Of a stretch of 64,000 bases of DNA, positions 1 through 18,806 are shown piece after piece. The DNA comes from Pyrrhoderma lamaoense (Eukaryota > Basidiomycota > Agaricomycetes > Hymenochaetales > Hymenochaetaceae): contig NBAZ01000001.1 of the NCBI GenBank assembly GCA_002794735.1, positions 3,038,001 to 3,102,000 of the forward strand, written 5' to 3'. Positions within the stretch are counted from its first letter, which is position 1, and every line of letters starts with the position of its first letter. Both the position numbers and the translations under genes were made by a program. Below the pieces are notes generated by a model. The model searched no databases and was not told the origin of the DNA. It was given only the letters and a program-made list of their open reading frames with translations.

Positions 1-143
1 TAAGTCCATCTTTCTTAAATCTAGACCTTGAGAGATATATCCTTTATACTGAAATTGAAACGCTCTAGCATGTAGATAATATTACAGTGGCTTGTACCAA
101 AATTCAAATATCTAAATTAGATTTATCTGATGAAGCTTATTAG

Positions 144-167
144 TATCACGTGATCGCGATAATAGGG
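144..167 (+). promoter_or_regulatory. Conserved upstream block of kinase copy 1
   Basis: A palindromic TCACGTGA core is followed by CGCGATAAT. Related blocks occur upstream of the other kinase copies at 3725-3751, 6104-6131, 10035-10058 and 13758-13785. A CACGTG core is the usual target of bHLH factors, but binding here is inference. The rest of 1-408 shows no gene. Confidence 0.5.
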
Positions 168-408
168 TAACCATCATTACGTGAATCGGAAGAAAGTTGG
201 AGTTTGAAATCGCTAGATATATGATACAGTTGATGATAATTTTTAATTTATGGGGCTGATTTGATTCAAGATTCTCTCCGGAAATAAAAAAAAATAAGTA
301 AAAATCTGTTAAGCTTCCTCTGTATGTAGAAATTCGGATGGCGCACCTTATATAACAATTGTACTTGTCCGTATTATTTCCTTCTTTACCACTCCGTATA
401 ATATTGGC

Positions 409-2290
409 ATGCCCTCTTCAGGAAAAGCGAGGCAAGTCTGGCTGTCTCTGCGCCGTCTCCGCCCCGTGTCACAGTTCGCATACGTTTTCTACCCTGAGTC
501 TATCACTACTCCGACTCGTTGGCCTCAACATCGCGCATTCTCTAACATGGCACATTACCCTACGGACCTTTTCGAATATACGTCAGGAAAGTGGATGTGA
601 GTCTCATACATGACCCTCTATAGGCTGCACACCTAACCCGTAATCTGTCACACTTAGCTATAATAATGAACTTCGTCACAAAGAGCGCAGACGTATATTT
701 GACGTCGATGAGCTCAGTCGACTTGCAGCAGAGTCTGTCAATCGTAGTCCAAATGATGTTGCTAGTCTGGTAAAACTGGCTGAAGGTGGGTTTAACCGTG
801 TATTCCTCATCTCCATGCACGATGGTTTCCGAATGATCGCTCGTATCCCATACCCGATTATGGATCCCAAGTACTTCGCTATTGCTAGTGAAGTAGCTAC
901 TATGGACTATCTCCGTTCAGTAGGCATACCTATACCTGAGGTGTACGGATACTCTCCCGTACCAGACAATGCGGCAGGGACGGAGTATATATTCATGGAA
1001 TATATACAAGGCACCAACTTGGGTGACATATGGTTTGATCTAGAAGAAACAGATATCATTTCTATAACACGGCAATTGGCCCAACTAGAATCGAAGATGA
1101 TGTCGATTTCTTTCCCAGCTGGCGGTAGCTTATACTATACTAAAGACCTTAAGGATGTGCCTGGGAGTGAATCTGGGAATACCAGGTTAGGAATTACATT
1201 AGAGAAGGATACACGCTTCTGCGTCGGTCCAGATACAGATCTATCTCTATGGTTTGGAAGGAGATCACAACTCAACATAGATCGAGGACCATGTAAGCCG
1301 TTCTCTGAAAGTTATAAAGTCACTTCATATAATAAACCGACAATTATAGACAAGAATATAGAGGAAACTCTAAGAAGAAGAGCTGAGAAGGAAATAGCTT
1401 ATCTGGAACGATTCGGTAAACCGCTTCTACCATTTGAACGTATGAGGAGGGAAGCCTATAATTACGAGAAGCAGTCGCCAATGGATCACATTGAGAATAT
1501 AAAGCGCTATCTCAGCATCGCTCCATCAATAATCCCAAGAGACCCAACCCTCAGACATTTTCGCATCCGCCATCCTGATCTTAGACCAAGCAATATCTTT
1601 GTTTCTAGGTCCTCGACCACTGACTTACACATTGTCAACCTAATTGACTGGCAAAAAACCTCTATTCTACCTCTGTTTCTCCTTGCTGGTACCCCTCATG
1701 AGATACAGAACTACAATGATAATGGCTGGAAGACTAAAGAGCGACCGTCGATACCAGAAGATCTTGCAAATTTAGACGAGGCTCAGCAAAGCAATCAGAT
1801 GGAACTCTATCGCCGCCGTCTTGTCCACTATCACTACATCAAAAACACGGAGAAGTATAATGAACTTCATCACGCGGCATTGGCGGACCCGATGGATGTG
1901 CTCCGCCGCCGCCTTTTCAGCTTCTCTGGTAGCCTATGGAAAGGGGAAACTCTGGAGCTGAAGGTTGCTCTGATAGAGGCAGTGAAGAGATGGGAGACAC
2001 TGACAGGAGGAGGACTATCGTGTCCTATAGCGTTCGAAACCGATGATATAGAGAAGACTATGAAGTTGTACGCAGAACAAAGGGAAGCTGACGAGATAAT
2101 TGGAAAGATTCGGAGGTCGATTGATTGTGCGCCAGATGGATGGGTAACTGTTGATCGCTACGATAAGGCCATGGAATTCTGTAAGGAGTTGAAGGAGGGT
2201 GCTCTTGCAGCGGCAGAACTGGAGGGTGAACTAGCCCAGATTGCGACACACTGGATACTGGATGACATGGACGAAGAAGACTACTTATGA
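409..2290 (+). CDS. AIM9-like mitochondrial kinase-fold (APH family) protein, copy 1
   Basis: The coding parts are 409-596 and 658-2290, joined across a 61-nt GT-AG intron, giving about 606 residues. The N-terminus is Arg/Ser-rich and ends in RAFSN, like a mitochondrial presequence. The kinase-fold core follows, with conserved family stretches such as EGGFNRVF, IARIPYP, SEVATMD and FMEYIQG. The Brenner-type catalytic motif is HPDLRPSN (His about 368, Asp 370, Asn 375), and the metal-binding Asp lies in IDWQ (about 393). This fits the fungal aminoglycoside-phosphotransferase/AIM9 family; the substrate of that family is not established. The C-terminus is acidic (DMDEEDYL). The start was chosen because ATG 409 aligns with the starts of the other copies. 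The gene is the first unit of the array and its small-gene partner, if any, lies left of the window. Confidence 0.85.
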
Positions 2291-2654
2291 AGATTTGAAC
2301 TATAGACTATAAATTAATGATATCGCACCACATAATGAAGCCGTATTATTGATTTTAATACTGTCTCTTTGATATAATTTGTAAAATATGCTCTGTATAG
2401 TGAGAATAGCACTGTGTTCACATGTAGTTGTACACTCCTGTGTAGTGAACATATGCATGTCTATGTGTCTCTTAAAAAAGTGTAAGGGTGGGGCTGGTCG
2501 TAAGCTACACTTATTCAACGTTGATTGAGCTCAGTCTTCTCATTCTGGATAGTAAAAATGCACTTTCATGCGGGCGCATAATATGCAGGAGAATATAAGG
2601 TATATAAAAAAAGAACAGTAAACAACAGCTTCGGCCCACTCAGGGCTCGCTTTG

Positions 2655-2980
2655 ACGCCTTGCTAGTAAATCGATACTATCCATTTTGTTCAGATTGCTT
2701 CCTACAGTGCTTCAGCGGAGGTATCAGACAATAATAAAGCAATCATATAGTGTGTATGAATTGGATAGAAAATATTGACAGGACCAATATTACTCGCCAG
2801 TATCTCCGAAAGGAATAATAGAAATATTAGAACAATAGAATAAGAAGAGACCATGCGTTTCTTTCCCACATTTTCTGTATCTCCATCATAGATCTCTCAT
2901 CTGAACAACCCTCAACTGTAGTTGTCAAGACAGATCTGCTAAAATGTACCATTAAGCACGCTACTGTAGCGCCTAATCAA
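2655..2980 (-). pseudogene. Sec14-gene 3' fragment, unit 1
   Basis: On the minus strand this stretch resembles the last two exons of the Sec14-like gene at 15529-17792. Matches cover the last-exon segment near 2655-2735 and the preceding exon near 2925-2980, including the part equal to GIAPDGT. It is too degraded to code and is a scar of the segmental duplication. Confidence 0.6.
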
Positions 2981-3329
2981 TGATGTGATGAGAAAAAGGG
3001 AAAGTGTAGCAGTCGGTATCAATTTGTTTTTTTGTATCAAGCTCCGGTGGATAATCTGGATGAAAAAATAACTGTAATTGTATGAATATTACTATCTAAG
3101 TCCTCTTCTTTTTATTACCGTAAAACTTGAAATAATATAGTGGTATTGCTGTCGTTATCACCAGATTATACACAGTCTCCGAAAAATAGGAAAAACGTGC
3201 AGCAGCAGAAAGTGAGATAGAAATCAGTAAACTTTAATAAGTATGCGCATGTACAGAGACTACAGAGGCCTCGTACAGGATCAGCGGTGTAACTAGTTCC
3301 CTATTATGAAAGAACAACGTCCAGTCAAA

Positions 3330-3545
3330 TTTTCACCTATTTGAATGATCCCTCCAAAGATAGCTCGACATCCTCTTTACTACCATTTCTCTTTACAAGT
3401 AGTTAAGACATGACATCGTGGGCGCTTCATTTTGCCTCTTTCCACTGCGCAAGTCATGGGGGTACTTTATCAGACTCTGGCTTCATCTAGAACTTGTGGT
3501 ATAGCGTACCATTTGATCCCTTGATCTCCCTGTTACAGTATTAGT
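3330..3545 (-). pseudogene. Remnant of the small ~120-aa gene, unit 1
   Basis: Reverse translation gives recognisable pieces of the small protein encoded at 13134-13496: GEIKGSNG, YHKF, a degraded QW-containing segment, and KEDVELSLE. Several stops and indels interrupt it, and the first ~40 codons are not recognisable. It would have been divergent from the decayed kinase copy starting near 3770. Confidence 0.65.
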
Positions 3546-3837
3546 GCATATAAGATCTTTCCTTTCAATTCTCAGCATCTAATCTAGATAGGATAGATAA
3601 TCTGGAATAACATTTCCTTATAGTTATAAGCCAGATGCACCAAATTTAGTTACTAATATAGTAGCTAAAACAGGAACTTGCGCCTTTTAATTCTTATTTG
3701 TCTGATAAGACCGTATATTTATTTGCGTCATGTACTTGCGTATAATAGGGGCTGGCGACTGGATGGAGTTTCTTACATCAGATCCCCCACATATTAGTAT
3801 GCACTCCTTTGAAAGCTTGAAGTAAATCCGGTAACCT

Positions 3838-4249
3838 CTGCGCCGCCTTCATGCCTCGTCTCGTGGCATGAACGCTCCGATGGGTAGCTCCGTTGCCGCC
3901 TTTACATTTACGTGAAACTCTGGATCTGAGGCTTGTACTGATCGAGGCAGTGAAGGTCTGGGGGACACTGTCTAAGGGAAGACCGCCATGTCCTATTGTG
4001 TTCGACCCGATGAAGTAAGTGAGACTATGAAGCTGGATGCAGGACAGAGAAGCGGTAGATATTATAGAAGGAATCCGGAACTGTGAAAGGCGTTGGGCCG
4101 CACAGTTGGATACCCGCCGAGAACTATGAGGAGCTCATGAGTCGTAGCAGAGATCTTGAGGAGGTAGAACTAGTGGCATAGAGGAGAACCGTTCCCTGAC
4201 TGCGGCGCACTGGCCGTTCGCCGACATGGATGAAGAGGACTACTCGTAG
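3838..4249 (+). pseudogene. AIM9-like kinase remnant (C-terminal part only), copy 2
   Basis: Only the C-terminal quarter survives. Recognisable segments include the ETLDLRLVLIEAV-like stretch near 3930 and the terminal DMDEEDYS followed by a stop at 4247-4249, matching the DMDEEDYL terminus of the open copies. Frameshifts and stops are frequent. The upstream 3725-3835 sequence resembles the promoter and 5' part of copy 5, so the N-terminal and catalytic parts were lost by internal deletion. Confidence 0.75.
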
Positions 4250-4862
4250 ATGAATTGAACTCTGAATACTCTAGGATAAGATATCTTACTAGATAGTGAA
4301 GCAGTTCGCTAATAAGCTTTGGAATAAAATATAATAACGATGCTATGGGAGGTTTAAGCTTGACCCATAGCCTTGGGCGCTAAAAGGATGTATACATGTG
4401 GGTATAAGAAGGGGTGCTAGGAACGACAAAATGTCATAGATTTTTTGAATAGTTTCTTGTTTGGAAGAGAATGGCCATATAGCTCCTGGAGTGGTTCGTC
4501 TATGTATCCCACCTGTATACCACACGCTCGTGGAAAGGCACATTTCCGGAAACCCGAGCTCAAACAACATAACTTTTAGACCTCACAGAATACAGGAACA
4601 TATACTCAAACGGAATCCGTCTATTTTGACTTCTTACGAAATACTAATACTAAACTAACTCTAAGAAATTATTATTTAAACAGGAACGAGCAAAACAAAA
4701 CCAAACATAAAAAATACGAGAAAGATTTCTGTAAGAAAATGTTATTGATGATACTAGACAAGTATAATGCGATTATTACAATCAGAATTTGTCAAAGCAA
4801 GTACAGTAAGTGGATATACGAGAAGATGGGAGGAAGAGAATACATACCGTTCGTCTTAATCA

Positions 4863-5120
4863 AGAGACGACGTTGACTTGTGCGAGACACTCGGGGGTTC
4901 CTCTTGATGTATTGTAAGTCTAAAACGTCCATTTATTAAGAGTACTATGTATATCCACACCTGCAGTATACTCAAATGATGATACGGATTTTCAATGATG
5001 AAAAAAAGGTAGCCCGTCAATTCTACACAATCTATCTGTGGTCTGGATCACTTTCAGTTATAGATTCTGAATTAATATGCTCACTCGTGTACCGTCGAGT
5101 TCAATACTTCAGTGCTTATC
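4863..5120 (-). pseudogene. Sec14-gene 3' fragment, unit 2
   Basis: The segment 4863-4990 matches the terminal exon of the Sec14-like gene, including its stop region and the LAKHRDEPRVSLEQ-encoding part. Positions 5060-5120 match the previous exon. It contains indels and has no open frame of useful length. Confidence 0.65.
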
Positions 5121-5483
5121 TCAGAGGACGATGTGATAAGAAGAGAGATGGATATAAGAAGTGGCGTTTAGTTACTCTCCTGGATAGAGTGCTAGTAAAT
5201 GCAAATAAAAATATATATGTAAATTTCTGAATAACTATCTAGAGAGTTCGCAACGCAATTTATCCTGATAGAAGTAGCAGATGGTGAATGATTGAAGTAA
5301 GAGCTAAGAGGATACAGTTATATCCATTACTATAAAACTCATCAAACTTATTTAATTATTAATTAGGCTAATTCATAAAACAGTAGGGTGGTGAGTAAAT
5401 ACAAGTTAATTCTCAGTAGCGTTATATACCAAACGAGACAGATGATGTCAAAGAGGCAGATCAGTATAGCAGACAAGAAGCCT

Positions 5484-5842
5484 CTAACTCTTAACCTGAT
5501 TGATAGCATTCTCTAGGCTCGTTTGGGCATCCTCCTTAGTACCGTCCTTCTTTACATAGACATTGGCCATGACGGCATGAGTGCCCCCATTCTTCTCCCT
5601 CCACTGCTTGATTGACGAGGGTATCTTTGTACCAGCGTTCGGTTGCATCTGGAACTTGTGATAGGTTAATCCATCGGATTTCTTGACTTCTCCATCGTAG
5701 TCCCAGCGGACTCCGATTTTTTCCTTATCAGCCTCAGTTTTGGATATGTTGTCTTGCCTCTGAGGACAGTGGGGTTAGTGAACTTCTTCCATCTGGAGCT
5801 ACTGATGGCATTGGCGACAGCTGCTTTCAAGGCTTTGTTCAT
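5484..5842 (-). pseudogene. Small ~120-aa protein gene with one frameshift, unit 2
   Basis: This copy is close in sequence to the intact gene at 13134-13496 over its whole length, from MNKALKAA to a terminal QVKS. One base is missing from a run of A near 5743, in the segment coding for YPKTEAD, which breaks the frame. The 359-bp length is one base short of a codon multiple. Because other conserved genes in this window also carry single-base deletions, this could be an assembly error and the gene may be functional. A TATA box lies about 90 bp upstream and the promoter is nearly identical to that of the intact copy. Confidence 0.7.
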
Positions 5843-5930
5843 TGTATCTGTTCAGAGGCTTATTGAGTAGTTGAGAATATGTGAGAAGTGTTTGTTTCGT
5901 TGATGTAGATTGAAGCAGGAAAAGTATGGC

Positions 5931-5937
5931 TTTTATA
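5931..5937 (-). promoter_or_regulatory. TATA box of small gene (5842, minus strand)
   Basis: TATAAAA on the minus strand, about 90 bp upstream of the ATG at 5842. It is conserved at the same distance in front of the intact copy at 13496. Confidence 0.55.
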
Positions 5938-6103
5938 GTTGAAAAAACCCATCTTGCTTGAACAACTTATCCGAGAATGCGCCTTGCTCATAAGATTGAA
6001 AGCAATACATTATGGTGTATTAATAGGAAGATGGTGGCCACTGGCTAAAAGAAGACAGGTAAATGGGTATTTTGCCTGATAAGTTGCACGCGTATCTCTA
6101 TAT

Positions 6104-6131
6104 GCGTCACATGACCGCGTATAATTAGACC
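6104..6131 (+). promoter_or_regulatory. Conserved divergent-promoter element, unit 3
   Basis: GCGTCACATGACCGCGTATA and following bases, identical in position and nearly identical in sequence to 13758-13785. It lies between the small gene (-) and kinase copy 3 (+). Confidence 0.5.
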
Positions 6132-6151
6132 GGCCGTCACTCCCGATGGGG

Positions 6152-6610
6152 ATTGTAAACTAGGTGCGTTCAAAGTGACGGCACTGAATGCTGCTTGCCC
6201 ATGTCGTCCTAAGTGTATAAATAACCAAGTACTATGTGAATGCAATAGATCAATTGTTCTAAAAGACGGAATTCTCTATTTAAAAAAAGCCCAGGAAAAC
6301 GCCGAAAAAAGCAACCGAGTTGAAAAGCGGGCCCTGTTTTTCAAAATGTTCCGATAGAATAACATCACCTACTAACTTTCTTCCTAATTACATAGTACAG
6401 GTGAATTTTTCTTCTCAAAAAATAATTTTAGATAGGCATGCTTTTTAAATTTTATGTTGTAATTCTTTGGAGTTTTCCTGGGCTTTTTTTTTGAAAAGAA
6501 TAAATCTCTTACGTTCACGTAGCGACTCCTACGGAAGCAAATAGTGCATTAGCACGTGGCACTAGTAACTAAGTAAGAGAGTTCAAAGTGCCGTCACCAG
6601 AACACGGTCC
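6152..6610. mobile_element. Putative insertion with nested inverted-repeat element
   Basis: The near-identity with 13514-13804 breaks at 6151. The extra sequence begins with TAGGTGCGTTCAA at 6161-6173, the same 13 bases that begin the MITE at 52988. Inside it, 6283-6300 and 6473-6490 form an inverted pair (AAAAGCCCAGGAAAAC against its complement), about 210 bp end to end. GTGACGGCACT near 6176 and its complement near 6590 form another inverted pair. No coding sequence was seen. The exact ends are uncertain. Confidence 0.45.
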
Positions 6611-6730
6611 GCTCTCCCAAGTATAGCATAATATTTGCACTCGCCAAACTCGGCTGAAAATTGGGTCTATTACAATAACATAGTAGGGAATATTGTTCAT
6701 GCTGAAACACTGAACTCTCCTAATAATAGC

Positions 6731-8600
6731 ATGCCTCCTCTCGGAAGAGCAAGGTTAATTTGGCTGTCTCTGAACCGTCCTACTCCCTCTTATTTACAGT
6801 TATCTCACATCTCTTGCCACAACTCAATCGCTACCTCACGTCGCTTGTTCTCTAATATGGTACATCCTTCATCTGACCTCTTCGAATACACAACAGGGCA
6901 GTGGATGTAAGTCTCATACATACTATTCTATAAAATATACATTTAATCTATAATCTATAATCTACTATGCTCAGCTACAACAATGAGCTTCGTCACAAAG
7001 AGCGCAGACGTATATTTAACGTCGATGAGCTCAGTCGACTTGCAGCAGAATCCATCAATCGCAGTCCTAGTGAAGTCGCCAGTTTGATAAAACTGGCTGA
7101 AGGTGGATTAAACCGTGTATTTCTTATCACCATGCCGATGGCTTTCAAATGATCGCTCGCACTCCGTTCCCGTTATGGTTCCTAAGTACTTCGCTATTGC
7201 AAGTGAAGTGGCTACTATGGACTTCCTCCGCTCACTCGGGATACCCGCCCTCAGGTGTACGGATACTCTCCCGTACCGGACAATGCGGCAGGGACGGAGT
7301 ATATATTCATGGAGTTTGTGCAAGGCGATAGCTTAGATGATGTATGGTTTGACTTGGAAGAAGCTGAGATCACTTCGATAACACGGCAACTTGCTGAACT
7401 AGAATCGAAAATGATGTCATTTTCTTTCCCTGCTGGTGGGAGCCTATACTATGCTAACGATTTAATCGATGTGTCTGTGAGTAACTCTGGAACTTCTAGG
7501 CCGAGAATCATACTAGAGAAGGACAATCGTTTCTGTGTCGGTCCAGATACAAGCGTACCTCTATGGTATGGTAGGAGAACACAGATTGATTTAGATCGAG
7601 GACCATGTAGGTGACTCTTTGCCTCTTTCTAGATCACATTGTCAATTAAACTAACAATTATAGATAAAAATGCAGAGGAAACACTGGTAAGAGGAGCTGA
7701 AAAGGAGATCGCATATTTGCAACGATACGGTCAACCGCTGTTACCGTTTCAGCGTGTAAGGAGGGAAGCTTATAATTATAAAAAGCAATTGCCATCGGAT
7801 CACATTGATAACCTGAAGAGATATCTCAGTATTGTGTCGCCACTGATACCCAGACGCCTGGACCTCAATCGTTTTTGCATCCGCCATCCTGATCTGAGAC
7901 CAAGCAATATTATCGTTACTAGGTCCCCGGACCGTGAATTGCGCATTGTCAGCATGATAGACTGGCAACACACTTCGATACTACCTCTGTTTCTCCATGC
8001 AGGTATACCACAACAGCTACAGAACTACAATGATAGCGAGTGGAAATCCACAAAGAAACCTTCACTTCCGGAGGGCTTGGCCGATTTAGACGAGTCTCAG
8101 CAAAGTAATGAGATGGAACTCCACCGTCGCCGTCTCGTCCATTACTATTACGTCGAGAATACAGAGAAGTATAACAAGACTCATTTTACGGCATTGGCCG
8201 ATACCATGGGTGTGCTCCGTCGACGCCTCTTTACTCATTCCAGTAGCCCATGGGAAGGTGAAACTCTGGAGCTTAAGGTTGCACTAATAGAGCAACGAAT
8301 AACTGGGAGACACTCACTGGAGGCCAGACATGTCCTATTGTATTCGACTCTGATGACGTAAATGAAACTATGAGGTTATATGCAAAACAGAGAGAAGCAG
8401 ACGAGACCCTCGAGGTATGCCAGAATATGATCGGATTCGGGCCAGAGGGATGGGTTCCCGCCGAATACTATGACGAAGCGAGGGCACTTTGCAAGAAGAT
8501 GAAAGATGATGGGTTAGCGGAGGCTGAGTCAGAGGAGGAACGGGCTCAGACTGCGGCACACTGGCCGTTGGACGACATGGATGAAGAGGATTACTTGTAA
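6731..8600 (+). pseudogene. AIM9-like kinase, copy 3, multiply frameshifted
   Basis: Exon 1 (6731-6906) and the intron (6907-6974) are intact and encode a presequence ending in SRRLFSN. Exon 2 then carries single-base deletions relative to copies 1 and 4 near 7136, 7172 and 7250, a net loss of four bases near 8291-8325, and in-frame stops just after 7610. The stops could be avoided if 7607-7663 (57 nt, GT...AG) is an intron absent from copies 1 and 4. The catalytic HPDLRPSN and IDWQ motifs and the DMDEEDYL terminus are still present. With at least four frame breaks I call it a pseudogene despite the error-prone look of the assembly. Its divergent partner is the small gene at 5484-5842. Confidence 0.8.
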
Positions 8601-9082
8601 ATTGATTGATTTGTGGAAACTCTGGGCTGAGGTATCTTGTTTGCTATTGAGGACGTATTACTACATGGTTTTGACGTAGAATAGATGGCGTACTACTAGA
8701 GGGAAGTACGTTTTTCTTATGGTCTCAAGCGCTTGAAGAATTTATATAGGTAAGTTATACGATAGGATGCTAGGAATAACAACTATCATATGTCTTTACA
8801 TTCCAAGTCAGCCTCATTTCAAACACCTTTAGACGATATATAAATATGTTTTTTTTTACATAAATTAAGAGTATAGGAATACAAACGCCACTGGAAGGTG
8901 TTGCTCTATTCATTTCCTTGCAAATTATAATCATACTTAATCATAACACTAAGAATTAGTATCGGAACGAAAGAAACGTTACTGAGAAAATCAGGCAAGC
9001 CCAAAGCGATTGATATAGTAGAATATCATCAATGAAAGTAGTTACTCGAGAAGATGCGGAGCGGACGTTACCCATTCGTCAT

Positions 9083-9215
9083 CATCAAGAGATAATCGAC
9101 TTGTTCAGATGATACTCATAGATCCTCTTGATGTTTGCTAAGTCTAAACCGTCTATTTTGAACAAATTACTATCTATATCCATATCAGCAGTAGTCTCAG
9201 ATGAACCGATTCTCT
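9083..9215 (-). pseudogene. Sec14-gene 3' fragment, unit 3
   Basis: Matches the terminal exon of the Sec14-like gene, including the stop region and the segment coding for KLDDLDLAKH, with indels. It cannot code on its own. Confidence 0.6.
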
Positions 9216-9534
9216 AACGAAAACCTTTCATAATATTATTGCGCTGATATATCGGCGTTATTCGTAAACTTCACTGATAGAAAATAGAGGACACTAGAAT
9301 AGGGGAAAAATACGGTTTACTTCCTTCTTCTCCGTATTCAAATGAATCAGTAACATCTTTTTCTGATTTAGACCATGTGATATCAGTATCATCATATTCA
9401 GTTTACAAAAAAGAAGGAAGTACATGAAGTAGTAGGTAGTAGAGCAACAATAAGCCCGCTTTCTTATGTGATCAGAGTGGCAGATAGATACAGTCGAATT
9501 TCTAGATCAACATAATTTACAAAAAGAAGAAGTC

Positions 9535-9840
9535 TGAGTATCCTTTACCTGATCGATACCCACCCTCAAGCATGCTTCGGTACCCGGATTACTTCCGCCC
9601 TTCTATACAAATGTATTCTCCTTGACGGCATGAGTGCTCCTATGCCCCTCCCCACTGTCGACTTGACGCGGGTATCAAGATAGAGTTTAATTGTATTTGA
9701 ACCTTGTGATAGAGAGTGCCATCGGGGCGCTTGATCTTATTGCCACTCTTTCCAGCGGCTAACCTTTATTTCCTTTTTGTCCCTAGTTTCGGGAGTACTC
9801 CTCTTTCCCCTGTCGATGATGAGGACCGAAAATTTTGCCC
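9535..9840 (-). pseudogene. Decayed small ~120-aa gene, unit 3
   Basis: Minus-strand translation gives scattered matches to the protein encoded at 13134-13496: AHAVKENTFV, then a C-terminal GIDQVKDTQ-like end. Stops and frameshifts occur throughout. It is divergent from the open kinase copy at 10290, so that pair keeps the kinase and has lost the small gene. Confidence 0.6.
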
Positions 9841-10034
9841 ACTATTGGTGTTACTATAGCAGAAGATATGAGCATTTATAGCTTGGTATACTGCCTTATT
9901 ATATCAGTTGAAAAGAGATCCTCTGAGTTCGAAGGCCATATGTTCAAGCATATAGATACTATTACGGTGACCAAAACAAGAAGTAAACTCCATAATACAT
10001 GCATTTCGTCTAATGAGGCCGCGTTTATATTGTC

Positions 10035-10058
10035 TATCACGTGACTGTGTCAATTGAG
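10035..10058 (+). promoter_or_regulatory. Conserved upstream block of kinase copy 4
   Basis: TATCACGTGACTGTGTCAAT, then at 10065-10074 the CATTACGTGA element also found at about 175-184 upstream of copy 1. Confidence 0.45.
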
Positions 10059-10289
10059 TGGCCATCATTACGTGAAATGGAATATAGTTGAGTTCTGATG
10101 TTCAATCATATTGATGAAATATCTCTATAATGAACTTAGATATGAAGTTGGAGTACAAAACTAATGTAATTTTCAAATGAAGTTAACATGTTTCAGTAGT
10201 GAGACAACATTAACTTATACAGTACTCACGTGATCACAAAGATATTGCTCTTACCATCTATCTCTTCTCCTGCAACTCCGCATTGTAAC

Positions 10290-12195
10290 ATGCCTCGTTT
10301 CAGGTGCATGAAGCCTATTTTCGACCTTCCACTTACCCCAATCTTGCGTTATACGTGTCGCTTACGCCTCACATCCAATCTACTTCGCGTTTCCTACTCT
10401 AACTTCATCGCTTCCCCGACTCGTTGGTCTCAACAACGCGCATTCTCTAACTTAACACAGTACCCTACTGACCTTTTCGAAAATACAACAGCGAAGTGGA
10501 TGTCAGTATGATACATGCTACTCAACTGGGTATACGCCTAAATCGTAATCTGATATGAGTAGCTACAATAATGAACTTCGTCACAAAGAACGCAGACGTA
10601 TATTTGACGTCGATGAGCTCAGTCGACTTGCAGCAGAATCTGTCAACCGTAGTCCAAATGATGTTGCTAGTCTGGTAAAACTGGCTGAAGGTGGGTTTAA
10701 CCGTGTATTCCTCATCTCCATGCACGATGGTTTCCGAATGATCGCTCGTATCCCATACCCGATTATGGATCCCAAGTACTTCGCTATTGCAAGTGAAGTA
10801 GCTACCATGGACTATCTCCGTTCAGTAGGCATACCTATACCTGAGGTGTACGGATACTCTCCCGTACCAGACAATGCGGCAGGGACGGAGTATATATTCA
10901 TGGAATATGTACAAGGCACCAACTTGGGTGACATATGGTTTGATCTAGAAGAAACAGATATCATTTCTATAACACGGCAATTGGCCCAACTAGAATCGAA
11001 GATGATGTCGATTTCTTTCCCAGCTGGCGGTAGCTTATACTATACTAAAGACCTTAAGGATGTGCCTGAGAGTGAATCTGGGAATACCAGGTTAGGAATT
11101 ACATTAGAGAAGGATACACGTTTCTGCGTCGGTCCAGATACAAGCATACCTCTATGGTTTGGAAGGAGATCACAACTCATCGTAGATCGAGGACCATGTA
11201 AGCCGTTCTCTGAAAGTTATAAAGTCACTTCATATAATAAACCGACAATTATAGACAAGAATATAGAGGAAACTCTAAGAAGAAGAGCTGAGAAGGAAAT
11301 AGCTTATCTGGAACGATTCGGTAAACCGCTTCTACCATTTGAACGTATGAGGAGGGAAGCCTACAATTACGAGAAGCAGTCGCCAATGGATTACATTGAG
11401 AATATAAAGCGCTATCTCAGCATTGCTCCATCAATAATCCCAAGAGACCCAGCCCTCAGACATTTTCGCATCCGCCATCCTGATCTTATTCCGACCAACG
11501 TCATTGTTTCTAGGTCCTCGGACACTGACTTACACATTGTCAACCTAATTGACTGGCAAAAAACCTCTATTCTACCTCTGTTTCTCCTTGCTGGTATCCC
11601 TCAAGAGATACAGAACTACAATGATAGTGGCTGGAACACTAAAGAGCGACCGTCAATACCAGAAGATCTTGCAAATTTAGACGAGGCCCAGCAAAGCAAA
11701 CAGATGGAACTCTATCGCCGCCGTCTCGTCCACTACCACTACGTCGGGAACACATGGAAATATAACAAGCCTCATTACTCAGCATTAGCGGACCCGATGG
11801 ATGGGCTCCGCCGCCGCCTTTTCGAGTACTCTGGTGGCCTATGGGAAGGGGAAACTCTGGAGCTGAAGGTTGCTCTGATAGAGGCAGTGAAGAGATGGGA
11901 GACACTGACAGGAGGAGGACTACCGTGTCCTATAGCGTTCGAAACCGATGATATAGAGAAGACTATGAAGTTGTACGCAGAACAAGAAAGAGCAGACCGG
12001 ATTATGGAAAATATTCGGAGGTCGATTGGTTGTCCGCCAGATGGACGGGTAACTGTTGATCGCTATGACATGGCTATGGAATTTTGCAAGGAGTTGAAGG
12101 AGGGTGTTTTTGCGGCGGCAGAACTGGAGGGTGAACTAGCCCAGATTGCGACACACTGGGTACTGGATGACATGGACGAAGAAGAATATATGTGA
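10290..12195 (+). CDS. AIM9-like mitochondrial kinase-fold (APH family) protein, copy 4
   Basis: The coding parts are 10290-10501 and 10563-12195 across a 61-nt intron with a GTCAGT donor, giving about 614 residues. The N-terminal ~60 residues differ strongly from copy 1 but again form an Arg-rich presequence ending in RAFSN. The kinase-fold region is nearly identical to copy 1 up to the catalytic loop. There it reads HPDLIPTN (His about 376, Asn about 383) instead of HPDLRPSN, and the metal-binding IDWQ is intact. Changes also cluster near the C-terminus, for example at ENTEKYNE versus GNTWKYNK. This is the best preserved copy and probably functional. A start at 10555 without the intron would give a shorter protein lacking the presequence. 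Confidence 0.87.
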
Positions 12196-12657
12196 TAAAT
12201 CGTAATGAAGGATCTAAGCTGGAGATTTCTCATTGTATAATGGACTCTTATTGCTATGAGACTTGTGAACGTAGGGAGATCTTATTTGATAGTATTAAAG
12301 ATTCCAAAGGAAGGGCAAGATATAGGAAGGGGCGCCAGAAATGATAAGCAGCACTTTCTTTTTGGATAATTTCTTGCTTGGAATAGAGGAACCTGCTGCT
12401 TACGAACTGTTTACTGATACCACTCTTTGTATACCCACATGAATACTAAGCGCCGCGGAGGTGTCGAGAGAGTGTGTCGCCTACTATCCATCTATGAGAC
12501 TCTGTAATCTACCAGGGATGAAGTAACATTTAACTGGTAAAACTCACGTATATCCCGATTCCCTCCCTCTATAACACGTTCAACTGACGAATAAACATAT
12601 TTTCACATGCATAAGGAATACAGGAGCAAGAATGTGTATTTGTATGTGGTGTTATTT

Positions 12658-12760
12658 CCATTTTTCTGATCCGGACTACGCTCTGCTGCAGATGCTGAAG
12701 CAGATCTAATTGCATGTGTACCGTTAGGTGCGATTCCGCAGTGTCTAATCAAAGAGATAT
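12658..12760 (-). pseudogene. Sec14-gene 3' fragment, unit 4
   Basis: Matches the exon of the Sec14-like gene that encodes GIAPDGTRVNRPASA and the start of the acidic linker. The terminal exon is not recognisable here. It is not coding on its own. Confidence 0.55.
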
Positions 12761-13133
12761 ATACAGTAAGAAAAAAGAGGTGTACGCAAGTTAGTGTTAA
12801 GCTGTTCTCTAAGAATAAGTGATAGTAGGTGCGAATAGGTAAAGATCTGTAAATTCATGATTATTAAGATCAAGAGAGTCTGCAACGTATTCTATCCCGA
12901 TAGTTTGATAAGTTGTAGTGATTTGATAAAAAATTAAGAAGATTTATTTGCATTAATCACTATCAAACTCATTAACTTTATTCATTTCCAGAGAAATACA
13001 TAAAATAATAGAAGGTGGGGTGGAAAAAAGTTAACTCTCAATGGCTATCAGATCAGCAGGTGCTACGGAGGTCATATACTAAACGAGACAGGTGCAGTCG
13101 AAGAGGCAGATCGGTATAATAAATGAAAAGCCT

Positions 13134-13496
13134 CTATTTACTCTTAACCTGTTCGATAGCCTTCTCCAAACTCGTTTGCACATCCTCTTTAGTACCGTCC
13201 TTCTTTACAAGGACATTAGCCATGACGGCATGAGTGCCCCCATTCTTCTCCCTCCACTGCTTGATTGCTGTGGGTATTTTTGCTCCAGCGTTTGGCTGCA
13301 TCTGGAACTTGTGGTAGGTTGCACCATCGGATCCCTTGATCTCCCCGTCATAGTCCCAGCGGACACCGAGTTTTTCCTTATCAGCCTCGGTTTTGGGAAA
13401 TACCGTCTTGCCTCTGTTGACAGTTGGGCTAGTGAATTTCTTCCACTTGCTGGCGTCAATGGCTTTGAGTGCGGCTGCTTTCAAGGCTTTGTTCAT
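13134..13496 (-). CDS. Small lysine-rich protein of the array, intact copy (120 aa)
   Basis: A single-exon 120-residue protein of unknown function. It is Lys-rich and hydrophilic, with no signal peptide, membrane segment or cysteine. Sequence landmarks are MNKALKAA at the N-terminus, GVRWDYDGEIKG, YHKFQMQPNAG, KQWREKNGGTH, and a helical-looking KEDVQTSLEKAIEQVKS end. I do not recognise the family. A TATA box lies about 90 bp upstream, with a promoter shared head-to-head with kinase copy 5. Its coding frame has survived while the divergent kinase copy 5 decayed. Three other copies in the array are broken or fragmentary, and their reading-frame matches support that this ORF is a real gene. Confidence 0.75.
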   Translation of the reverse strand: MNKALKAAALKAIDASKWKKFTSPTVNRGKTVFPKTEADKEKLGVRWDYDGEIKGSDGATYHKFQMQPNAGAKIPTAIKQWREKNGGTHAVMANVLVKKDGTKEDVQTSLEKAIEQVKSK

Positions 13497-13584
13497 TGTA
13501 TCTCTTAAGGGTCTTGTTGAGTAGTTGAGAATATGTGAGAAGTGTTTGTTTCGTTGATGTAGATTGAAGCAGGAAAAGTATGGC

Positions 13585-13591
13585 TTTTATA
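13585..13591 (-). promoter_or_regulatory. TATA box of the intact small gene
   Basis: TATAAAA on the minus strand, about 90 bp upstream of the ATG at 13496, conserved with 5931-5937. Confidence 0.55.
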
Positions 13592-13757
13592 CTTGAAAAA
13601 ACCCATCTTGTTTGAGCAGCTTATCCGAGAATGCGTCTTGCTCATAAGATTGAGAACTATACGTTATGGTGTATTAATAGGAAGATGGTGGCCACTGGCT
13701 AAAAGAAGACAGGTAAATGGGTATTTTGCCTGATAAGTTGCACGCGTATCTCTACAT

Positions 13758-13785
13758 GCGTCACATGACCGCGTATAATTAGACC
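13758..13785 (+). promoter_or_regulatory. Conserved divergent-promoter element, unit 5
   Basis: GCGTCACATGACCGCGTATA and following bases, between the intact small gene (-) and kinase copy 5 (+). Confidence 0.5.
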
Positions 13786-13844
13786 GGCCGTCACTCCCGA
13801 TGGGAGGTCTCTTACATTTGATCCCTTTGCGTATTAGGGCTGAC

Positions 13845-14815
13845 ATGCGCTCTCTTGCAAGGTAATAGTCAAATTGTACGTCTCTATGAGATATACTTGC
13901 TCCTCATTGAGGTTATCTCACATTTCCTACTCCAAGTCCATCACGACCTTAAGTCGCCTGTTCGCTAACATGCTACATCCTCCTAACGATTTCTTCGAAC
14001 ACACAACAGGGAAGTGGATCTAATTCTCATAAATCTTATTAGCCTATGAAGACATATACATTGGGATCATACTCTAAAATATATAATTATAACAATGAAA
14101 CTCGCCATACTGAGATCATGGCAATTTGCCGAACTAGAGTCGTATATGACGTTAATATCCTTCTCTGCTGTAGATCTAATAATATACTAAGGACTTATTT
14201 TATGTGTCTGGGAGTGGCTCTGGGTTTGCTAGCTCGGGCAACACACTAGAGAAGGATGGATATTTCTGTGTCGGATCACGGTCCGGATACAAGTATACCT
14301 CTATGGTATGGTAAGAGAGAACAGCTCAATTTAGCCATAAGGCCATGTAGGCCACTCTTTGCCTCTTTCTAAATCATATTGTTAATTGAACTGACAATTT
14401 TAGATAAAAATGCAGAGGAAACACTGGTAAGAGGAGCTGAAAAGGAAATAGCTTACCTACATCAGTTCGGTCAACCACTGTTACCGTTTCAGCGTGTAAG
14501 GAGGAAGTTTGTAATTATAAGAGCAATTGACATCGGATCACAATGATAATCTGAGGAGATATCTCAGTATCGTGTCGCCACTGATATCCAGATGCCCGAC
14601 CCTCAATCGTATCTGCATCCGTCATCTTGATCTCATACTGAGCAATATTAAAGTATCTAGGTCCCGGGAGTTTTGACTCATACATCTTCAGCTTGATAGG
14701 TTGGCAATACACCTCGATCTTACCTCTGTTTCTCCACGCCGACAGACCACAACGGTTACAAAACTATAATAATAGTGGATGGTGATCCACAGAGCGACCT
14801 TCACTAGACTCCGAA
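13845..14815 (+). pseudogene. AIM9-like kinase, copy 5, degraded
   Basis: A 5' remnant near 13945-14021 still reads SRLFANMLHP and TTGKW, then stops. A large part of the N-lobe is deleted between about 14110 and 14180. Later pieces resemble the EKDGYFCVG segment, the AEETLVRGAEKEIAYL segment and a broken catalytic region near 14620-14720 in which the HPDL motif reads HLDL and the IDW motif is lost. Stops and indels are frequent, and homology ends near 14815 before the C-terminus. The 57-nt GT...AG stretch that replaces coding sequence in copy 3 is present here too (after 14346). Sequence downstream (14870-15000) matches the region downstream of copy 3. Confidence 0.8.
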
Positions 14816-15528
14816 CTAAGGAATTTTACATGTTATCGAGAGAGTATTGCTACAACCAAGGCTTTGTTGTAGTTGTAGAATAATTGTCGTGCTACTAGAG
14901 ACAGGTATGTTTTATTAGTGGTCGCAAGCGCTTAAAGAAAGTATACAAATAAGGTATACGAAAGGATTTCAGGAACAAGTAGTAGCATACACCTTTTGGG
15001 CATTTTCTTGCTTGGGATAGTTGAGATCTTCGCTTATGCATTCATGAGTTATGTTGTCTTTTTTTGAAAATCTCCTGTATATTATACTCTCGCGAAAGAT
15101 TAAGAGAGGGTGCCACTTATTATCCTTATATGAAAGTTCGAGCTGAGTCGAGGATAAAGAATGTTGTCTAGTGTAACTCGTGTACACGTGCATTCTAGTT
15201 CAACCCCATCTTATCATCTTAAGACAACATATAAACATGTATTTTCACACACATAAAGAATACAGGAGTATACATGCGAGCGGAGTGGAGTTGTTTTTTA
15301 ATTCTCTACAAATTCTTTATCATAAAAAATCTAAGAAACAAAGTTGGGACGTTTAAGAAAAAGAAAGACAGGAAGAGAGAAAGTTCACAACAACATCTGT
15401 AAGAGAAAATCGTTACTGATGATACCAGATAAGTCTAAAGTAAGTGCTACGATAAATAATTAGCAGTGAGGGCAATATAGGTGAGTACAGGCGACAATAA
15501 CGGAGTGAGGAGTTCCTCAACATTTTCA

Positions 15529-17792
15529 TCAAGAAACGACGACGTTAACTTGCTCAAGAGACACCCGAGGTTCGTCTCGATGTTTTGCTAGGTCTAAATC
15601 ATCCAATTTGTTCATGACACCATCTACATCTGCATCAGCGGTGGTCTCGGATGATGATACAGATTCCCTAGTATATAAAAAACATGATATTTTCGTTGAG
15701 CTGATTGATATCCAGAAGAAGGGATTAAGAGAAGAACATACGATTTCTCAACCTTTCCTCCTTCTCCATCTTCATCATTTACATTTTTCTGATCTGCATC
15801 AGTCTCATCTGTAGGTGCTGAAGCAGGTCTGTTCACACGTGTGCCATCAGGTGCGATACCACAAAGCCTAATTTAGGGAAAGAAGTGATGTAGAGAACAA
15901 AGAAGGGAGAGTTTTAGGAGTGTAAGTCAGATGAGGTAAAACGAAAACAAAGACTTCATCAGTATGGTTCTTTGAGTCAGGAAAAAGAGTAGGTAAAAAA
16001 AGAAGAAGGATATATCCAACTTACTCTACGATCTGTTCCCAGTAGCTGACCGGTTCAAATTCATACTCGAATTTCCCACCGAAATCAGCATCAAGTTGTT
16101 CTCCCGGAATAAGCTCCAGTAAATCCGGATTAAAACGAATCTGTAGGTGTGTGTGTGTGAAGAATTATGAACCGCGGTAGTTAGCCATCGCAGTTCTTTC
16201 CCGGTGGATTTTATCAAGTGATAGAGGGGTTGAAGTAAGAAACAGAAAGTGAAAGAAGAATGCTCCATACTCGTCACTATCGAATCCATCAAATTAAAAA
16301 AAGGAAGAGAAAAAAGGAAAAGACATGAGGCAGTACGGTGCGGAGTTGAAAAAGAAATTCAACTTCTCATAAGTTGGATCAAACTGGAACAAATCGGTAT
16401 CCAAGGGAAGGAGATAGACAGACTGGAGATATACTACCGGTTAAAAAGATCGAGAAGAAATTGGTTTAAACAACGGAACATAACTCCCTTGGCATAGCCT
16501 AGAATCATTTCTGCCCATACGACTTGACCTTTTTTGATCACTACTTTTACTAAAAATCCGCATACGCCGGGTGCATAAAGATACACGACGGACGGATATA
16601 CGGAAGATAAAGGAACACACAACTAACACACAATAATAATTCATAAAAAGAGTTTACATGCAGCTTACCTTGTCTCTGGTCACCGGATCCATAAACGGTG
16701 CGATACCCTTATAGAAGAATGCAAGTATCGTTGGCATGTTCACCACGAGGCCGCGTCCCAAGGTTTCTGGGTAATGGGCCTGTAGGATATGAAGCACTTT
16801 CCGCGCAATGCTGATTGATGGGTTCGTTCGTAACGTCGTGGACTTGTAGTCTACAACAATTGAAACTGACTCTACACCGGGAGGTTGAAGGTCTTTGGCG
16901 CGTTCACTGGATAACGTTATTTTTGTAATAGAGAAATTGGTTATATAAATCACAGATGTTATTGAAAATAGGGTGTATGGTAACCTACAGACACCAAACG
17001 AGATGTCGGAGCTGGCGAGGAGATTGAGAAGTGTTTTCTCTTCCAGGACGCATGTAGATGACCGGTCGTCCATCCAAATCAAATCCATTGAGAATACTAT
17101 TGAATTTCAAGTGTTACAATTATTTGATTCAGTGATATTTTTTTTTACCTCATGACAGAATGTGAAAACTTACATCTTACCAGTCTCACTTTCAATCCGG
17201 ACCTAACAAGTAAAACAGGACCCCACATCAGAGCAGCCCTTCACCAAACAACGAAAACGAGGAAATAATTAAAACAAATAGATAGGAGATTCTGACCTCT
17301 TCGGGAGGTATTAAGTCAGGTTTAAACTCCCTCCTCCATTCCAACGTAGCCTTGAGTCTTTTCTTTGCATCGTCCAGTTTCCACTTCGCGCGCGCATATA
17401 ACGAGGAATAGTATCCGCCCGATCAAGCCAACGTTTTTCCCAAGGATAATAATCATCGTCTTCTGGTAGCATCTCATGTTTTGACCACTAAAGAGAATAC
17501 AAATAGAGGAGGTTATTCATAGTATTGTTAGCGCTCTAGTAAATCCTAGATCCATAAACCAAGCATGCGTTGTTATACAGGAGACCGCCAAGGAGTGATG
17601 ATGAAAAATTGTGGAGTTTGACAAGATTTTTTCCAGTTTATAGATAGGATATGATGATAATAGGATTGAGTTGAGGATGAGACTTACCTCTCGAAGTTGA
17701 TCAATTAACGAGCGCTGTTCGTCATTGTACGTCCATGGTTTCACCACAGTCTGGGGCGCTGGTTTTGCATGCACCTTATGAGTCTTGGCCAT
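15529..17792 (-). CDS. Sec14-like CRAL-TRIO domain protein
   Basis: Eight exons can be read on the minus strand, from MAKTHKVHAK at 17792 to a stop at 15529-15531. A CRAL-TRIO-N region is followed by the lipid-binding CRAL-TRIO domain: IILNGFDLDGRP, the segment around IYMRPGREN, VDYKSTTLRTNPS, LQAHYPETLGR and DPVTRDKIRFNPD. An acidic Ser/Asp-rich tail follows. Such proteins carry phosphatidylinositol or other lipids between membranes; this one resembles the fungal Pdr16/Csr1 type, which is inference. One exon is only 29 nt (encoding VRIESETGK). A single missing base near 17390 in CGCGCGCGAAG breaks the frame between RYMRA and KWKLDDAK; restoring one base gives the family consensus, so this may be an assembly error. 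Its 3' end is copied in every array unit. Confidence 0.8.
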
Positions 17793-18806
17793 AATATGAA
17801 TCTCTAATCTCTAAGCTCTAGTACTTAATTTTATGGAGAATTGATCTAGGTTGTTGAGACTGGACGAGAAAGTGAGAGGGAAAGAAGGAACTGAGTCAGA
17901 TGGAGATGCGCAATTGACGGGAGGAACATGATGGATGGATTCGGCATACAAATAAGACTGGTAAATAAATTACACATCACCGTTCATCACTTCTCATCCA
18001 ATCGGTTGTCCCGATCTCGGATCGGTCACCCTTCACGTAAGCATTTCTGACCCACTTCTTAGTATTGTAAATAATTAGTTAGATTTTTAAGAGATGTTTT
18101 GCATTTGCACTTTCAAAATCCTACTGGATTTCGTGTGTATCAATAGGCTATACTAAGAATGCGGGGTAGTATTGGACACAAATTTACTAATACTATTAAG
18201 AAAGTAATGAAGAGGAAGAAAAAAAGAGAAAAAAAAAAGAGGAATAAAAGGAGGGACGGAGAAGATGCGAAGAATTAGGTTTGGAAGGCTTGATGAAGAA
18301 TGAGATTAATACATAGCAAAAGGAATAAAAAAACGAGTTTAAGAATGATGAGTAGGAGGATTGATGGGTTGAGACGAGAACAGTAGGGAAGAAAGGAGAG
18401 AGGAAGAGAGAGAACAAGAACGTATGCAGCATAAAATAGCGTGAGTCTCGAGGTGTCGATATAGTATCTGGGAAAAGGGAATCAAGATAGGACTTTGAAA
18501 GAGAAGACACCACAAAGCTAGAAGGGCATAGGCTCTGCAAGAATAAGAGAAGGGGGTAAAAGGGGGGACACCAAGAAACTGTGAAGTAGAGATGAACTAA
18601 AGAAATGAACGGATATGTTTGCGAGATGAGAAGAATAAAAGGCCAAAAGGAGTTGTGTAGTAATAGATAAATAGCCACGAATAGGTTTTCCCGTCCGTTC
18701 AAAAAAAGTAAAGAGAAAAAAAACACTAAACTCATTTATGGTCCCAGTCGTTCAAAATAGAGAGGTATAAAAAAATAATGTCCATACTTGAACATAATGA
18801 ATAACT
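17793..18806. other. Intergenic region, promoter side of the Sec14-like gene
   Basis: A long purine-rich stretch at 18190-18760 produces an open minus-strand frame of about 180 codons with F/L/S-rich composition. I consider it a composition artefact in the 3' flank of the next gene. No RNA gene or repeat was recognised. Confidence 0.5.

Follow-up and report, generated by a model that had tools for sequence, protein, structure and literature searches.

A tandem array of divergent AIM9-type kinase and PF28515 small-protein genes in Pyrrhoderma lamaoense: a candidate selfish toxin–antidote cassette

Introduction

The SPOK genes of Podospora and the FuSpok genes of Fusarium are reported to be transposon-borne toxin–antidote genes that occur as active and degenerate copies and whose kinase domain is needed for resistance (PMC12693581, PMC12941216). 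The wtf drivers of fission yeast form a long-lived family of driver genes. Kinases of related fold are numerous in some fungi; a table in one study gives 98–258 phosphotransferase-family genes in ten Onygenales columns, 40 in column Pl (presumably Paracoccidioides), and 33–47 in three outgroups (PMC4751544), and another study reports expansion of the PKL/CAK/Fmp29 (AIM9-type) family in Coprinopsis cinerea and Laccaria bicolor (PMC4215621). In the open-licence literature searched, no assigned function was found for PKL/CAK/Fmp29 kinases. We know of no accepted reason for the expansions in Onygenales and mushrooms. Here, we analyzed a 64,000-nucleotide stretch of the Pyrrhoderma lamaoense genome (the window, C1:3038001-3102000 on contig NBAZ01000001.1, here C1), in which a kinase gene of this family (K) and the gene for a small PF28515 protein (S) form a head-to-head tandem array. 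No description of the S–K pair was seen in the open-licence literature searched.

Results

The copies were located by searching the genome (30.65 Mb, 72 contigs) with three proteins (S5, S1, and K4) and exon 1 of K1 as queries; window position p corresponds to C1 position 3038000+p. The array comprised six kinase copies (K0–K5) and five small-gene copies (S1–S5) between C1:3034486 and window base 14806 (Table 1), and its unit, with S on the minus strand and K on the plus strand, was tandemly repeated with identities of 72–99% over 96–300 bases, far above chance. All five genome-wide matches to S lay inside the array. A first-pass annotation of the window had proposed this recurrent two-gene cassette, which we observed directly. 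It had placed the array at 1..15530; the array is real but reaches left past the window, K0 and S1 lying to the left of base 1. Likewise, its statement that the pair recurs in each unit applied to five of the six units, wrecks included, the exception being K0, beside which protein searches of the array detected no S. Elsewhere in the genome, a single weak kinase-like stretch was found (C10:193291-193509, 40% over 74 aa), and the genome-wide S search gave no match there. A genome scan with PF01636 returned seven places and missed the array itself, and hence represents a lower bound that we did not use.

Kinase frames were open in K0, K1, and K4, and the small genes S1 and S5 were intact, whereas the majority of the array copies (S2, S3, S4, K2, K3, and K5) were broken pseudogenes. 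S1–K1 was the only pair with both genes intact; within the window itself there was none, S1 being outside. Two proteins from a public metagenome resembled array copies. P0001 equaled S5 with one change (99% identical), and P0002 matched S3, which is split between two frames here, with 99% identity across 85 aa and 86% across the initial 42. Because P0002 resembles an intact S3 allele, the gene may still be functional elsewhere in the population, a live/dead polymorphism, or its frame change here may be an assembly error.

Decayed 3′-end copies of the CRAL-TRIO gene that flanks the array followed each of K0–K4, with one more to the left of K0, and were 59–73% identical to the parent in a self-comparison. 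Because the unit also carries this 3′ end, the array, judging from its sequence, is the product of tandem duplication of a segment comprising S, K, and the CRAL-TRIO end. In 72-base windows, K0 and K1 were 94–99% identical over 432 bases and 68–97% elsewhere, and K1 and K4 were 97–100% identical over the first 576 bases and 76–100% afterwards; sequence exchange (gene conversion) thus seems to have occurred between kinase copies. Pairwise dN/dS values (Nei-Gojobori) were 0.38 for K0–K1, 0.47 for K0–K4, and 0.45 for K1–K4, and 0.24 for S1–S5 at a near-saturated dS of 1.27. Although gene conversion blurs the array values, these ratios (0.24 for S, 0.38–0.47 for K) show a sequence signature of purifying selection on both frames. 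As a separate observation, the repeated decayed CRAL-TRIO 3′ ends mark duplication breakpoints.

Table 1. Features of the array and its surroundings (window positions unless given as C1)
Feature	Position	Strand	Remarks
CRAL-TRIO 3′ end, decayed copy left of K0	C1:3032235-3032953		self-comparison
K0 kinase	C1:3034486-3036390		open frame, glycine-loop glycines lost
CRAL-TRIO 3′ end, decayed copy after K0	C1:3036936-3037420		in pieces; self-comparison
S1 small gene	C1:3037468-3037827	-	119 aa, intact
S1–K1 intergenic, window part	1..408		581 bp in total; S1 start C1:3037827; TCACGTGA at 146
K1, AIM9/Fmp29-type APH-fold kinase	409..2290	+	exons 409-596 and 658-2290; 606 aa; intact
CRAL-TRIO 3′ end, decayed copy	2637..2996	-	59% to 15562-15897
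S2 small-gene wreck	3331..3564	-	6 stops
K2 kinase remnant	3914..4248	+	about the last 115 codons, stops inside
CRAL-TRIO 3′ end, decayed copy	4566..5007	-	64% to 15234-15682
S3 small gene	5487..5842	-	frame change; near-identical intact allele P0002 in public metagenome
S3–K3 intergenic	5843..6730		TCACATGA at 6107; TATAAAA on S side, 95 bp before S3 start
K3 disabled kinase	6731..8600	+	5 stops and a frame change
CRAL-TRIO 3′ end, decayed copy	8961..9253	-	62% to 15395-15712
S4 small gene	9543..9885	-	heavy decay, fragments
S4–K4 intergenic	9886..10289		TCACGTGA at 10037 and 10226
K4 kinase	10290..12195	+	exons 10290-10501 and 10563-12195; 614 aa; intact; unusual donor GTCAGT
CRAL-TRIO 3′ sequence, decayed copy	12654..12778	-	70% to 15777-15903
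S5 small protein, PF28515 family	13134..13496	-	120 aa, intact
S5–K5 intergenic	13497..13865		right end set by hand; TCACATGA at 13761; TATAAAA 95 bp before S5 start
K5 kinase wreck	13871..14806	+	fragments
Flanking CRAL-TRIO (Sec14-like) gene	15529..17810	-	ends approximate, from open frames; domain at 16657-17106; 3′ part co-duplicated

The intergenic regions of units 1–5 (286–888 bases) aligned over a common core. The motif TCACRTGA was present in four of these five regions (Table 1) and absent from the 1376 bases before K0. It occupied seven distinct sites in the window, five of them in array intergenic regions, and its 10 matches, both strands counted, were reached by 4 of 100 shuffles. 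Because the copies are relatives, this recurrence demonstrates descent and retention rather than independent gain. The TATAAAA elements upstream of S3 and S5 had no counterpart within 160 bases of the S1, S2, or S4 starts.

Kinase gene models built on alignment to relatives had two exons encoding 606–614 aa, with an intron of 60–61 bases at a corresponding position in K0, K1, and K4 and a splice donor that read GTCAGT in K0 and K4 and GTGAGT in K1. The earlier assignment of K as an APH/AIM9-like kinase was well founded: the APH domain scored 36.7 bits in K1 and 36.4 bits in K4 (Pfam cut-off, 23.2), many close relatives bear the name PKL/CAK/Fmp29, including Suillus paluster and Laetiporus rows (66% over 99–100% of the length), and structure comparison gave an APH fold with 9–15% identity to solved enzymes. 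AIM9 and FMP29 are names for the same protein. K1 and K4 retained the glycine loop as well as H-x-D...N and D-W, the catalytic residues of APH. K0 alone among 62 aligned kinases lacked both G44 and G45 of the glycine loop, and because both glycines are lost, K0 may be inactive despite its open frame, possibly a pseudokinase that arose from duplication. The first 50 residues of K were basic (seven K/R in K1, nine in K4, one D/E), giving the N terminus a mitochondria-like appearance.

Relatives of S numbered 106 among 120 candidates, every one of them listed with PF28515 (precomputed); a Pfam scan of S gave no match, the version scanned apparently lacking the PF28515 model. Six residues were invariant across 76 aligned rows. 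The predicted fold of S was modeled confidently, and its comparison with known folds gave no match at useful significance. We found no nuclease match for S, no confirmed relative in the bacterial, archaeal, and viral collections searched, and no S-like stretch in longer proteins (366–1164 aa) at E <= 1 among 312 candidates. K gave at least 672 matches, of which 120 were listed, and the closest named relatives of both S and K were from mushrooms.

Twenty-nine S rows were named, of which 11 are basidiomycete and 18 ascomycete. For the 11 basidiomycete rows, we compared the tables by eye with the 120 listed kinases, calling a shared contig where species and contig size were equal; kinases beyond those listed could add links. 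S and a listed K shared a contig in 6 of the 11 rows: Leucogyrophana (contig size 615492), Laetiporus (470656), and Armillaria novae-zelandiae (2037916), none with comparable tags; Sanghuangporus baumii (1961673) and Sanghuangporus sanghuang (2357379), with consecutive locus tags (ACEPAF_1645/1646 and ACEPAG_8385/8384); and Sanghuangporus weigelae (1974957), with tags 206 apart. Consecutive tags were thus found in two of three Sanghuangporus species. Leucogyrophana belongs to the Boletales and Armillaria to the Agaricales. The crude probability of six such coincidences was about 1e-8 with assumed genome sizes. In addition, S and K divergence was correlated across six pairs, namely five linked pairs and S1–K1 of the array (r 0.84, reached by 4 of 720 permutations); S. 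weigelae was excluded because its listed kinase lies 206 tags off. A literature search by locus tag on the ascomycete neighbors gave nothing on the point.

These results bear on two points of the first-pass annotation. Its proposed check, whether S and the kinase neighbor each other in other species, gave shared contigs in the six rows above and no kinase among the 120 listed in the remaining five. As for the two genes working together, linkage, locus tags, and correlated divergence support their belonging together, but the co-duplication on which that suggestion had relied is weak evidence because a piece of an unrelated neighbor gene was co-duplicated as well.

Comparison of relatives revealed high identities across fungal orders. 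K was 95% identical between Amanita muscaria (Agaricales) and Suillus paluster (Boletales), compared with 80% between A. muscaria and Amanita rubescens and 86–93% between S. paluster and three other Suillus (86% for Suillus spraguei). Identity of K also reached 91% between S. paluster and Ramaria (Gomphales) and 93% between Sparassis (Polyporales) and S. weigelae (Hymenochaetales). For S, Tulasnella (Cantharellales) and Lactarius (Russulales) were 89% identical, and Aspergillus carbonarius was closer to Coccidioides (85%) than to Aspergillus terreus (78%; P0012, P0041, and P0052). Because cross-order identity exceeds within-genus identity, horizontal transfer of S and K relatives between fungal orders is likely. 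Paralogy is insufficient as an explanation, since it may depress identity within a genus but has no means of raising it between orders; strong constraint would be able to raise it but is disfavored by the dN/dS of about 0.4 among array copies. The S tree was built from 29 named rows out of 106 and the K tree from 43 kinases out of the 120 listed. Firm branches were few in both (starred inner branches, 10 of 28 for S and 16 of 43 for K), and the array S rows were unplaced. One kinase labeled Ophiocordyceps sinensis (P0119) fell among mushroom kinases; its contig is 38.7 kb, which leaves transfer or contamination, and it was not used.

Discussion

We tentatively favor, from sequence and by analogy, a mobile selfish cassette in which K is a putative antidote to a putative toxin, S. 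S, a 120-aa PF28515 protein, and K would be transcribed divergently from one intergenic region. The cassette lay beside the CRAL-TRIO gene and multiplied by tandem duplication, its kinase copies apparently converting one another, and its copies are decaying one after another. The pair would spread horizontally as a selfish element. S would harm the cell and K would neutralize it by phosphorylating either S or a mitochondrial target of S; loss of K would be punished and loss of S harmless. The kinase frames that outlive S at K0 and K4 count in favor of this scheme, and, as in a two-gene toxin–antidote element, two linked genes are retained jointly across lineages, here on 6 of 11 rows. The toxin–antidote reading ranks marginally ahead because S is a small protein with a distinct fold and no recognized enzyme family that was not found within the longer proteins searched, and because in SPOK, a well-studied fungal killer, resistance resides in the kinase domain. 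Traveling, multiplying, converting, and dying in place would, by analogy, be typical of selfish or resistance cassettes.

Several observations weigh against the toxin–antidote reading. The array kinases form their own long branch (0.42) in the K tree and thus give no evidence that they entered this genome by recent transfer. Among the 120 listed kinases, none lay on the S contig of Tulasnella, Lactarius, Suillus fuscotomentosus, Gloeophyllum, or Dichomitus (5 of 11 rows), and adding the non-adjacent S. weigelae pair lowered the correlation of divergences to r = 0.56 (106 of 5040 permutations). Of the two kinases outliving S, K0 has lost its glycine-loop glycines, and S5 is intact next to the dead K5, though other K copies may cover for it. 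Many K probably act without S because the K family is the bigger one (at least 672 matches versus 106 for S). Finally, transfer and patchy spread suit detoxification genes equally.

A detoxification pair of enzyme and dedicated partner is nearly as likely as, and close behind, the toxin–antidote pair. K would phosphorylate a mitochondrial substrate, either a protein or a small molecule, with S as its activator, inhibitor, or carrier, and the pair would confer resistance to an environmental compound and be gained, amplified, and lost with exposure. The APH fold, however, indicates no substrate, solved enzymes are 9–15% identical, and the nearest recognized neighbor genes, for a polyprenyl synthetase (left) and the CRAL-TRIO protein (right), encode neither a transporter nor a detoxifying enzyme. 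Co-duplication of the CRAL-TRIO 3′ end in the same units, together with the persistence of the K0 and K4 frames without S, fits another account in which S and K are functionally unrelated old neighbors duplicated as passengers like that fragment. We regard such hitch-hiking as improbable, given that every CRAL-TRIO copy has decayed (59–73% to the parent) while S1 and S5 are intact and that S–K linkage recurs across species of several orders. Purifying selection on both genes and the mitochondria-like N terminus of K could also point to a vertically inherited, strongly constrained housekeeping pair, such as an assembly factor of mitochondria with its cognate kinase, whose cross-order identity would reflect conservation; the yardstick for those identities here was within-genus identity rather than housekeeping genes of the same species. 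This explanation appears very improbable, because cross-order identity exceeds within-genus identity, the open-frame kinase copies differ by 9–20% in protein and most array copies are dead, and S matches just 106 of the 120 candidates.

A small conserved partner that is linked to K in mushrooms and apparently crosses orders raises a testable question, namely whether some of the expanded kinases are antidotes or detoxifiers. In its broadest form, the proposal is that PF28515 and an APH-fold kinase constitute a horizontally mobile eukaryotic toxin–antidote pair present throughout Dikarya, that the toxin has a novel fold, and that kinases persisting after toxin loss would account for the unexplained expansion of APH-type kinases in mushrooms and Onygenales; this must be considered doubtful.

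Among known systems, K belongs with the PKL/CAK/Fmp29 (AIM9-type) mushroom kinases by sequence (66% over the full length), domain, and fold. It shares with the APH-type antibiotic phosphotransferases the fold and the H-x-D...N and D-W pattern but differs from them in its 9–15% identity, basic leader, extra C-terminal helices, and linked S. The wtf drivers, like this array, show clustering, decay, and gene conversion; they make both products from one gene and have no kinase. In SPOK, a single protein carries the kinase domain as well as a nuclease-like domain for killing, whereas S and K are separate, divergent genes on opposite strands with an APH-type K, which places the locus outside the SPOK family. 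The likeness to SPOK and FuSpok lies in a kinase that would serve resistance and in the coexistence of intact and degenerate copies.

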